NCBI RefSeq assembly: GCF_000317045.1 | Contig: NC_019703.1 | Span: 4,534,934-4,598,933, forward strand | Source: Geitlerinema sp. PCC 7407 | Lineage (GTDB): Bacteria; Cyanobacteriota; Cyanobacteriia; PCC-7407 | Direction: 5' to 3' | DNA length: 64,000 nucleotides | Part shown: in pieces, positions 52,118 to 55,500 of the stretch | Position numbering within the stretch: position 1 is the stretch's first letter | How the letters are laid out: every line of letters begins with the position of its first letter | Program-made: the position numbers and the translations under genes | Notes under the pieces: model-generated | What the model saw: the letters and a program-made list of their open reading frames with translations, nothing else | The model's database searches: none | Told to the model about the DNA's origin: nothing

Positions 52118-53845
52118 TTGAAGATCCGCTCCAACTACCAACGACTCATTCCCTACCTGAAACCCCACCAAAGCACCATTGCTCAGGCCTTGAGCTGCAC
52201 CCTGGGTTTCACGGTGTTTTGGCCGATTTTGGCGTGGCTCGCCGGGCGAGTGGGCGGCTTCATCGGCGAGGGCAATGTGGAGGCGATCGCCCAGTTCGCG
52301 GCGCTCGGGGCGGTGATTTTCCTGATACGGGGCCTGGTGCAGTACGGCCAGGATGCCCTGATGGCCAAGGCCGCCTTCGCGATCGCCCTTGACCTGCGCA
52401 ACCGCGTTTACCGGCACCTCCAGAGTCTCAGCCTCAGCTACTTCGAGTCGGCGAAGGTCGGCGACCTGTCCTACCGCCTCACCGAAGACATCGATCGCAT
52501 CGGCGAAGTCATTAACAAAGTCTTTCACCAGTTCATTCCCTGCGTGCTCCAGCTGATCGTCGTGCTGGGCTACATGGTCTATCTCAACTGGCAGCTCACC
52601 CTGGGCACCCTGATTATTGCGCCGCTGATGGCGGGCTTGATCGGCTGGTTTGGCGAAAAGCTGCGGGTCGTCTCCCAGCGCAGCCAGAACCGCATCTCGG
52701 ACCTGGCATCCCTGCTCACTGAGGTGTTTAGCGGCATGCGGCTGATTCAGGCCTTCGCCGCCGAGGACTATATGGGCCAGCGCTTTGGCCAGGAGGCCGA
52801 GCGCAACCGCCGCGCCCGCTACCGCACCGAGCAGCTCAAGGCAATTCAGTTTCCCGTGGTGGGCTTCCTGGAGGCCATGAGCGTGCTGCTGCTCTTTTTA
52901 TTGGGGGGCTGGCAGATTTCGGAGGGCAACCTGACCGGGGCGGAGTTCATCAGCTACATTGCCGCCGTGGCGCTGCTGATCGACCCCATTTCCCTGACCA
53001 CGAGCAACTACAACGAGTTCAAGCAGGCCGAGGCCTCGGTGGACCGGATCTTTGAGCTGCTGGAGCTGCAGCCTACCGTGATCGAAGCGCCCGACGCGAT
53101 CGCCCTCAGCACCGTCAGCGGCAGCGTGGAATATCGGGGGGTTCGCTTTGGCTATCAGGCGGATCAGCCAGTGCTCCAGGATCTCAACTTGCAGGTGAAG
53201 CCGGGGGAAATGATCGCCCTAGTCGGAGCGTCTGGGGCAGGCAAGACGACCCTAGTGAATCTTTTGCCGCGCTTTTATGATCCGGAGGCTGGCTCCATCT
53301 TGATTGATGGCGTCGATATTCGTCAGGTGACGCTCCAGAGCCTGCGGCGACAAATTGGCATCGTTCCCCAGGAAACCATTCTGTTTTCGGGCAGTATTGC
53401 CCAAAATATCGCCTTTGGTCAGGCGGACTTTGACCAAAAGGCCGTGGAAGAGGCCGCCAAAATTGCCAACGCACATCAATTTATTAGTGCTTTCAGCAGC
53501 GGCTACCAGACCTGGGTGGGCGAGCGCGGCGTGAATCTCTCGGGGGGTCAGCGTCAGCGATTGGCGATCGCCCGCGCCGTTTTGCTCAATCCCCGCATCT
53601 TGATCCTCGATGAGGCGACTTCGGCCCTCGACTCGGAGTCCGAAGCCCTCGTCCAAGAAGCCCTTGAGCGGCTCATGCGCGATCGCACGGTGTTTATCAT
53701 CGCTCACCGTCTAGCGACAGTGCGGCGAGCCAACCGCATCTTGGTGATCGAGCAGGGCCAGATCGTGGAAGCAGGCACCCACGAGGAACTCATTGAGCAG
53801 GGCGATCGCTACGCCCGCTTTTATGCTCAGCAGTTCAGCCTTTGA
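52118..53845 (+). CDS. ABC exporter, permease fused to ATPase
   Basis: 575 residues from a TTG start (MKIRSNYQRLIPYLKPHQST); no strong alternative. Six membrane segments, the intracellular helix VGDLSYRLTEDIDRIGEV, and an intact ATPase: Walker A GASGAGKTT, Q-loop VPQETILFSGSI, signature LSGGQ, Walker B ILILDEATSALD, and H-loop IAHRLAT. Resembles the HepA/MsbA-type exporters of cyanobacteria, which move glycolipid or polysaccharide. Substrate not inferable from neighbours. Confidence 0.93.
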   Translation: MKIRSNYQRLIPYLKPHQSTIAQALSCTLGFTVFWPILAWLAGRVGGFIGEGNVEAIAQFAALGAVIFLIRGLVQYGQDALMAKAAFAIALDLRNRVYRHLQSLSLSYFESAKVGDLSYRLTEDIDRIGEVINKVFHQFIPCVLQLIVVLGYMVYLNWQLTLGTLIIAPLMAGLIGWFGEKLRVVSQRSQNRISDLASLLTEVFSGMRLIQAFAAEDYMGQRFGQEAERNRRARYRTEQLKAIQFPVVGFLEAMSVLLLFLLGGWQISEGNLTGAEFISYIAAVALLIDPISLTTSNYNEFKQAEASVDRIFELLELQPTVIEAPDAIALSTVSGSVEYRGVRFGYQADQPVLQDLNLQVKPGEMIALVGASGAGKTTLVNLLPRFYDPEAGSILIDGVDIRQVTLQSLRRQIGIVPQETILFSGSIAQNIAFGQADFDQKAVEEAAKIANAHQFISAFSSGYQTWVGERGVNLSGGQRQRLAIARAVLLNPRILILDEATSALDSESEALVQEALERLMRDRTVFIIAHRLATVRRANRILVIEQGQIVEAGTHEELIEQGDRYARFYAQQFSL

Positions 53846-53956
53846 CGCTCATCCAGCTAACGCTTTGCGTATGGCTGGAGATTCCCCGTTCACAAACGCG
53901 TAGGAACGGTTGCCCAAACCTCGCGAGCCTCTACGGGCAAACCCGATCGGGGCTCC

Positions 53957-54349
53957 TTAAAGCTTTTCGAGATATTCCAGCAGGTCAGCCATGGTTTGGG
54001 GGCTGGGCTGAAACTTCGGCATCGGGGGCGTTTTGCCGCTGATCACCTGCTGAATCAGGCTGACACGGGACTTGCGAGTCGAGATTTCTTTTAGGCTGGG
54101 GCCGATCCGACCATCTGCTTCTAAGCCGTGGCAGCCTGCACAGTTGATCTGAAAGATGGCGTGCCCCTGCACCGGATCTCCCGGCGAGGTCAGCACGGCT
54201 TGGATGTATGGATCAGAGGCCTGAAATCGCTGCCAACCGAAGATTCCTAAGAGGATCGCCAGCCCCATCGCAATGACTGCGATCGCGATCCGCTGGATCG
54301 GCAGCTCAATATCGGTTTTGGCAAGCTGATTATCCAAATTTCTGGCCAA
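53957..54349 (-). CDS. cytM: Cytochrome cM
   Basis: 130 residues from a TTG start; starts a few codons downstream are possible. An uncleaved N-terminal membrane anchor (IAIAVIAMGLAILLGIFGW), heme motif C70-A-G-C73-H74 and axial Met110 in PPMPKF, with LEADGRIGPSLKEI between. CytM is conserved in cyanobacteria and linked to the switch between photosynthesis and respiration or to stress. Divergent from petG with a repeat-bearing region between them. Confidence 0.9.
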   Translation of the reverse strand: MARNLDNQLAKTDIELPIQRIAIAVIAMGLAILLGIFGWQRFQASDPYIQAVLTSPGDPVQGHAIFQINCAGCHGLEADGRIGPSLKEISTRKSRVSLIQQVISGKTPPMPKFQPSPQTMADLLEYLEKL

Positions 54350-54394
54350 AAAGTAGCAACGGACTGGAAATATCAGAGTTTCGCTCAGCCAAGG

Positions 54395-54518
54395 GAGCTA
54401 TGGTTATCCAAATCAAAGCTTGAGCGTTTCAGACGGGCGGGCACTAATGCCTTGGCTGACGGGAGTTTTCGGGATCGACGCCGGATAACATAGCTTATTA
54501 ATTTGATAACATAGCTTA
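54395..54518. promoter_or_regulatory. Repeated 14-bp motif between cytM and petG
   Basis: GATAACATAGCTTA occurs exactly at 54484-54497 and 54505-54518, a 21-base spacing or two helical turns. A third, inverted copy with one inserted base (GGATAACCATAGCT on the minus strand) lies at 54396-54409, 46 bases upstream of cytM. The copies are consistent with operators on one face of the helix. Confidence 0.65.
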
Positions 54519-54772
54519 AAAGTTTTTAGGGATGTTTCTTGGGCAATCCCTCGGTATTTTGTTGTCTAGATGACAGCAGTCTAACAAGTTTGAAATTTTC
54601 TTAAGTTTTCCTCTCATTTTCTTCGAGGGTCAGCGTTACCGGTCAGGACGCTGAGCCGAGCACAAGACCGGCAGGATTCATCCCCCCACAGCAGCGGCAC
54701 GAGAGCAGGCGATATCCAAAGTCCTACAATCAATGTCAAACTGTTGATCAATCGTTCACAAGGAGATCTCCC

Positions 54773-54886
54773 GTGGTAGAACCTCTGCTCTCAGGCATTG
54801 TTTTGGGCCTGATCCCTATCACCCTGGCAGGGCTGTTTGTTGCGGCTTACCAGCAGTACCGTCGCGGCAATCAATTCAACCTCTAG
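54773..54886 (+). CDS. petG: Cytochrome b6-f complex subunit PetG
   Basis: 37 residues from GTG 54773, with AAGGAG 7 bases upstream. The sequence [20 protein letters not shown] then [17 protein letters not shown] is almost the textbook PetG. Single transmembrane helix; small subunit needed for b6-f assembly in thylakoids. A TACAAT at 54724-54729 could be its -10 box. It is divergent from cytM and convergent with rsmD. Confidence 0.96.
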
Positions 54887-54948
54887 CATTTGGCGATCGC
54901 GCCCCGTACCAAGAGCTGCGGCCCCCACGGCCCAGCTCTTGATTGTTT

Positions 54949-55500
54949 TTAGGGGGTTTCAGGATTCTGAAAGAACGTGAGCGCGGTGTTGCCGTAGAGC
55001 TTGACCCGGCACACGACGAGCCCCGAACTCGCTTGAAAGTCTTGGCGCTGGGGGCTGTGCTCCACCGCCAGTTCACCGCCCGCAGCCAGGAGCTGATGCT
55101 GGGCGATCGCCCCTAGCACCGGCTGATAGAGATCGCTGGCGTAGGGCGGATCGAAATAAATGCGATCAAACTGCTGACCCGCCAAGCTGCGCAGGCGCTG
55201 GGCCACATCTCCCTGGATCACGCGCCAAGATTGCTCCGGGGTGGCCACCTGCCGCCAGTTGTCGCGCACAATGGCACAGGCGCGCCCCGACTGCTCGATC
55301 CCCACTGCGGCGATCGCCCCTCGACACAGGGCCTCCGCGCCCATTACCCCGCTGCCCGCGCACAGATCCAGCCAGCGGCAGCCCACAACGTCGCCCTGCC
55401 AAATGTTGAACAGTGCCTCCCGCACTCGCGCTGGCGTTGGCCGCGTCATCTGTCCCGGCAGGGTTTTGAGTTGTCGGTTACCGTAGATTCGCAGCCCCAT
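54949..55500 (-). CDS. rsmD: 16S rRNA (guanine(966)-N2)-methyltransferase, RsmD
   Basis: 183 residues from ATG 55500 (MGLRIYGNRQLKTLPG). Rossmann-fold SAM-dependent methylase: SAM motif WLDLCAGSGVMGAEALCRGA, VGIEQSGRACAIVRDN, and catalytic FDPPYASD in motif IV. The start is set by family; upstream extension is not RsmD-like. Next to a divergent antiporter gene. Confidence 0.94.
   Translation of the reverse strand: MGLRIYGNRQLKTLPGQMTRPTPARVREALFNIWQGDVVGCRWLDLCAGSGVMGAEALCRGAIAAVGIEQSGRACAIVRDNWRQVATPEQSWRVIQGDVAQRLRSLAGQQFDRIYFDPPYASDLYQPVLGAIAQHQLLAAGGELAVEHSPQRQDFQASSGLVVCRVKLYGNTALTFFQNPETP

Follow-up and report, generated by a model that had tools for sequence, protein, structure and literature searches.

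Bacterial core promoters of the sigma-70 type carry a -35 hexamer (TTGaca) and a -10 hexamer (TAnnnT) separated by 16-18 bp, with transcription beginning 6-8 nt beyond the -10 hexamer. A second kind of site that bears on the present locus is the HLR1 element, KTTACAWW-N2-KTTACAWW, which is bound by RpaB and acts repressively where it lies over a transcription start (PMC13421787, excerpt). Transcripts of cytM increase under high light, cold, and salt (PMC3468840, excerpt), and in Anabaena, where the gene is all1365, they drop 4.67-fold when furA is turned off, FurA itself being negative in an EMSA on cytM (PMC4788461, excerpt). The gene product, cytochrome cM, affects heterotrophic growth, so far without a good explanation (PMC10515406, excerpt). 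In the literature that we searched on cytM, petG, and RpaB, with most subscription papers outside the search, no title or abstract opening described the conserved block reported below, nor did the excerpts cited here refer to it, and those dealing with the cytM promoter or transcription start described no mapped start. No paper treating cytM together with petG was found in that literature, and PMC5785211 contained no match to petG, cytM, 1478, or 1479. Promoters as such are familiar elements; what is notable here is the depth of conservation at one gene.

The repeated motif between cytM and petG

The window, i.e., the whole 64,000-nucleotide stretch of Geitlerinema sp. PCC 7407 that was analysed, holds cytM and petG as divergent neighbours, with the following features in and between them:

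53957-54337, minus strand: cytM (cytochrome cM; Pfam PF13442 and PF00034), with a likely TTG start codon at 54337
54396-54408, minus strand: motif copy 3, diverged, inverted, and with one inserted base, GATAACCATAGCT, matching at 12/12 bases apart from the insertion
54484-54497, minus strand: motif copy 1, an exact repeat that supplies a further -10/start-like unit, shifted by 21 bp toward cytM, with TAAGCT at 54492-54497
54506-54525, minus strand: conserved block, predicted cytM promoter, ATAACATAGCTTAAAAGTTT on the plus strand, overlapping motif copy 2 (54505-54518)
54513-54518, minus strand: TAAGCT of copy 2, predicted cytM -10 hexamer, which would place the transcription start near 54505-54507
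54541-54546, minus strand: TTGCCC, which may be a -35 box out of its usual place, 22 bp from the -10 hexamer of copy 2 (17-18 bp in most block-bearing relatives)
54773-54886, plus strand: petG (cytochrome b6f subunit 5; Pfam PF02529, E 3.5e-25), divergent neighbour and not a likely target

An earlier note on this DNA had described two exact direct repeats, 21 bases apart, in the region separating the two genes. Both genes were confirmed by their Pfam domains, and GATAACATAGCTTA was indeed found exactly twice on the plus strand, at 54484-54497 and 54505-54518, with a start-to-start distance of 21 bp and with similarity extending to a 21-bp unit of 86% identity. These are the only two exact matches in the 4,681,111-base (4.68-Mb) genome, so the suspicion that the motif simply occurs at background rate does not hold. 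When up to 2 mismatches were allowed, 11 places were found in the genome vs. 5 for the pattern read backwards. The exact double motif was searched in its own genome, whose family and order have no other member in the genome set, and the single 14-mer was found in 5 of 388 genomes, tblastn giving no cytM match at the 4 loci from other genomes. We also noted TAAGCTATGTTATC in a similar, non-cytM context at three loci (L091, L092, L093) from three genomes of one genus (family f23), which might mark another promoter built in the same way. A regulon within the own genome was looked for with TAACATANCTTAAA and discarded, since 27 matches (up to 2 mismatches) compared with 61 for the reversed control showed no enrichment.

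The same note had reported a third copy, inverted, with one inserted base and 46 bases from cytM. This copy is present, and the distance agrees with a TTG at 54349; measured from the likely cytM TTG at 54337, it lies 58 bases upstream. Its similarity to the motif continues beyond the core (TTGATTTGGATAACCATAGCT vs. TTAATTTGATAACATAGCT), and a score as high was rare both in 5000 Markov shuffles of the remaining intergenic region (P = 0.0016) and among real 388-bp chunks of the window (1 of 162). Although diverged, copy 3 is therefore unlikely to have arisen by chance. The repeat finder reported no inverted pair, presumably because its extension is ungapped. Copy 3 also shares a 13-bp direct repeat (12/13 bases) with the cytM start region, 54401-54413 repeating 54327-54339 at a distance of 74 bp, an offset that puts the two out of frame. 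This second resemblance may be due to chance; because of it, more than one origin of copy 3 is conceivable.

As for the genes themselves, the apparent start codon of cytM is TTG at most loci. Among the 80 loci nearest to that of the window, the start residue was TTG in all 79 that could be counted, 68 of which had no other ATG, GTG, or TTG before a stop; among 90 diverse loci, the 50 that could be counted gave 35 TTG, 9 GTG, 1 ATG, and 5 other codons. On the other side of the region, a TACAAT at 54725-54730, 42 bases upstream of petG, was picked out by eye as a possible petG -10 box. Rfam models searched over 53800-55000 with E up to 1 matched no RNA element.

Conservation and gene association of a 20-bp block

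Alignment of the intergenic region placed copy 2 within a 20-bp block, ATAACATAGCTTAAAAGTTT. Cytochrome cM matches were found in 369 genomes, and from the places listed 90 loci were hand-picked for spread over genera and scored; 7 more (f2 and f14) were scored separately, and the 97 loci counted below include 7 hand-picked from the 80 nearest (L009, L012, L047, L050, L058, L070, L084). Each locus was scored with a weight matrix trained without its own group and compared with 500 Markov shuffles. By this leave-one-group-out test, the block was present at p <= 0.01 in 40/97 loci and 17/38 family groups, a count that may be 16/37 since the groups are family labels except for the 7 nearest loci, which we grouped ourselves as five f32 and two 'coleo', and the 'coleo' pair resembles f38 and may belong to a labelled family. 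All 40 significant sites lay on the strand opposite cytM, and the block in the window scored p 0.002. It was not significant in 57/97 loci and 21/38 groups, including f16 (0/11 loci), f5, f12, f17, and f26; among the further loci it was found in 0/4 for f2 and was borderline in 2/3 for f14 (p 0.010 and 0.012).

From the block to the start-codon residue, 20 of the 28 measurable significant loci gave 36-64 bp and the other 8 gave 102-181 bp, the window falling into the latter group at 168 bp, and among the 80 nearest loci the distance was 38-48 bp in 75 of the 77 measured. The exact 14-mer ACATAGCTTAAAAG was found 26 times in 388 genomes; 16 of these matches adjoin cytM, and the other 10 are what the background would give, the reversed control having 11 matches.

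The conservation of the block among relatives strongly supports a functional cis element, as the earlier note had supposed. That note had further suggested that the site may coordinate cytM and petG. The divergent arrangement, with petG inside the locus in 65/90 diverse loci, is indeed common, as a shared operator would lead one to expect. However, the block lies ~247 bp from petG in the window, and genomes in which the two genes are separated speak for cytM. We examined 25 genomes for a separate petG, no petG being located in 2 of them (G009, G386), and found 18 with petG outside the cytM upstream region. Upstream of petG the block was absent in all 18, the best matches having 6-10 mismatches; as much as 450 bp was covered per genome, with 88 bp in G037 and about 300 bp in G050. 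It is retained at cytM, with p 0.002, in three of these genomes, G017, G050, and G019, the last having both genes on one strand, petG following cytM at a distance of ~1.1 kb. The other 15 have it at neither gene (p <= 0.01 not being reached at cytM) and are uninformative, so that this test rests on three genomes. The separated genes, together with the ACATAGCTTAAAAG matches adjoining cytM, identify the block as a cytM element; joint control of cytM and petG finds no support, and a shared operator is highly improbable.

The doubling of the motif, unlike the block, is particular to this genome among the significant loci. Whereas copy 2 has counterparts in many orthologous regions, a search for further direct copies of the core (up to 2 mismatches, within ~110 bp) gave nothing at the other 39 significant loci; two of them have inverted core matches with 2 mismatches each. 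It is accordingly quite possible, if somewhat short of an even chance, that only copy 2 matters and that copies 1 and 3 arose from local duplication as by-products without a function of their own, an explanation to which the resemblance of copy 3 to the cytM start region would also lend itself. Against this stands copy 1, which is exact over 14 bp and must therefore be either recent or under selection.

Conserved in nearly half of the sampled family groups, the block offers a direct handle on cytM, both as a 20-bp bait and as a target for mutation. Such a handle could show what controls cytM and under which conditions the gene is needed.

A predicted core promoter of cytM

The best-supported role for the core of the block is that of a promoter -10 region on the cytM strand. 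Read on that strand, the relatives' sites have the TAnnnT form in 36 of 39 cases, the three exceptions being f19 loci with TGAGCT, and most of the variation among them falls on the middle positions (TAAGCT, TAAGTT, TAAGAT, TAAACT, TAAAGT). A spacer of 17 or 18 bp separates the -10 from an upstream hexamer that starts with TTG in 28/39 loci and 11/16 groups (perhaps 10/15, should the 'coleo' pair belong to a labelled family). When offsets of 0-58 were scanned, pairs that did not include 17 or 18 gave TTG in at most 4 groups. This -35 signal falls outside the 20-mer on which the matrix was trained; at 17-18 bp it is missing in five of the 16 groups (f3, f4, f18, f19, f20). Directly observed in the relatives' sequences, then, are how well the block is conserved, on which strand it lies, that it goes with cytM, and that its spacing is promoter-like.

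In the window itself, TAAGCT has T1, A2, and T6 of the -10 consensus in both copies. Neither copy has a TTG -35 box at canonical spacing, TTGCCC standing at 22 bp and not at 16-18 bp; the window promoter is for this reason not canonical, and a scan of 53840-54960 with sigma-70 and terminator consensus patterns detected nothing. Considering the relatives and the window together, we predict, with a probability of roughly two in three, that cytM has its core promoter, on the minus strand, in the block to which copy 2 belongs. The motif would then most likely be part of the start-of-transcription signal of cytM, kept nearly unchanged in many cyanobacterial groups.

On this prediction, the copy 2 block read on the minus strand would consist of the -10 hexamer TAAGCT and a conserved start region, ATGTTA, with the TTGC -35 box of the relatives 17-18 bp upstream of the -10, and cytM transcription would begin at ~54505. 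In the present genome, the -10/start segment would have been copied 21 bp toward cytM, giving copy 1 and hence, on one face of the helix, either a stacked pair of start regions or a doubled operator, both of which fit the arrangement. Given the 22-bp spacing of its -35 box, cytM may need an activator here or may be weakly expressed.

A plain promoter does not account for all of the conservation. Outside the hexamer, C4, A5, A13, and T17 of the 20-mer are near-invariant in the relatives, with frequencies of 0.98-1.0. These frequencies come from 37 rows picked by similarity to the block (up to 5 mismatches, 8 of them by hand), a choice that inflates the information within the 20-mer and leaves its flanks unaffected. 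With that qualification, the bases beside the hexamer match the -10 box in conservation and exceed the needs of a plain promoter, against which they therefore count. Near-invariance to the left and right of the hexamer suggests that binding imposes an additional constraint, and a regulator sitting over the start might hold these bases, perhaps RpaB or another response regulator of the OmpR type.

One form of this idea is that the block is the operator of a dedicated regulator with cytM as its main target, the repeats being tandem sites two helical turns apart, the spacing that the earlier note had called typical of regulators binding as tandem dimers. Near-invariance over 20 bp that reaches beyond the promoter hexamer, the exact duplication 21 bp apart in the window, and the occurrence of the block at cytM and elsewhere at background rate would all agree with such an operator. 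However, the core is already explained by promoter grammar, the other 39 significant loci lack the second direct copy, and FurA, one known candidate, was set aside on its published negative EMSA with Anabaena cytM (PMC4788461, excerpt). We consider a dedicated operator unlikely. A broader proposal can be entertained only tentatively and is probably too strong, namely that a near single-target operator has lain on the cytM start since before many cyanobacterial families diverged, that it serves a regulator with no previous connection to cytM, that cytochrome cM is tightly controlled, and that in this genome the operator has become a tandem pair at the expense of a canonical -35 box.

Possible RpaB sites and comparison with known systems

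An RpaB regulon is likely in this genome, judging from the HLR1 grammar: 93 HLR1-like sites with up to 2 mismatches were found, vs. 39 for the reversed pattern. Among the 21 best sites, those at L211, L214, L215, L220, L224, L226, and L230, with 0 or 1 mismatch, precede genes that we named by eye as petC, a PSI subunit, a prenyl synthase, carotenoid desaturases, and ftsH. The 93 do not include the cytM block. Within the 350 bp upstream of cytM in the window, the best HLR1-like site matched 11/16 positions (p 0.955), i.e., with more than 2 mismatches, and we rejected an HLR1 identity for the window site on this consensus.

A more permissive proposal is that the block is an RpaB operator, namely an HLR1 direct repeat that has diverged and lies across the start of cytM, repressing the gene in low light and releasing it in high light. 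The poor match in the window and the position of the block outside the 93 sites weigh against this proposal. Nevertheless, among half-site registers on the plus strand, the three that fit HLR1 best fall at 0, -10, and +10 around the block; a period of 10 scored best and the half-site triple gave P 0.042, register 9 tying with 10 when the window was excluded. The test of half-site pairs, however, gave P 0.18.

Block-less loci provide a second line of evidence. HLR1 matches upstream of cytM reached 14/16 in f9 (1/1 locus) and f11 (2/3), 15/16 in f5 (3/3) and f17 (1/3), and 13 and 14/16 in f31, and families lacking the block had a mean HLR1 score above that of all 300 column permutations. Yet the reversed half-site scored nearly as well as the real one (12.59 vs. 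12.73), the number of such families with a score of at least 14/16 was not significant (P 0.087), and some matches lie far from the aligned cytM gene, the f5 match being 224-263 bp upstream of its aligned part, where the start codon is unsettled. The induction of cytM by high light, cold, and salt (PMC3468840, excerpt) would fit a release by RpaB, and sites overlapping a start are the ones that repress (PMC13421787, excerpt). On balance, an RpaB operator at this position seems doubtful.

Set beside the two described systems, the predicted cytM promoter resembles a sigma-70 promoter in most block-bearing relatives, which pair a TTG -35 box at 17-18 bp with a TAnnnT -10 hexamer. It differs from one in that its start region and flanks are nearly invariant across families and, in the window, by the 22-bp distance of the TTG box and the doubling of the -10/start unit. 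With HLR1 the block shares a weak, 10-bp periodic resemblance to the half-sites, a position that, like that of HLR1 sites with a repressing effect, would lie across the start, and a gene that is light-inducible in other strains; it departs from HLR1 in that 5/16 consensus positions mismatch in the window, where the second half-site reads TTAAAAGT instead of KTTACAWW.
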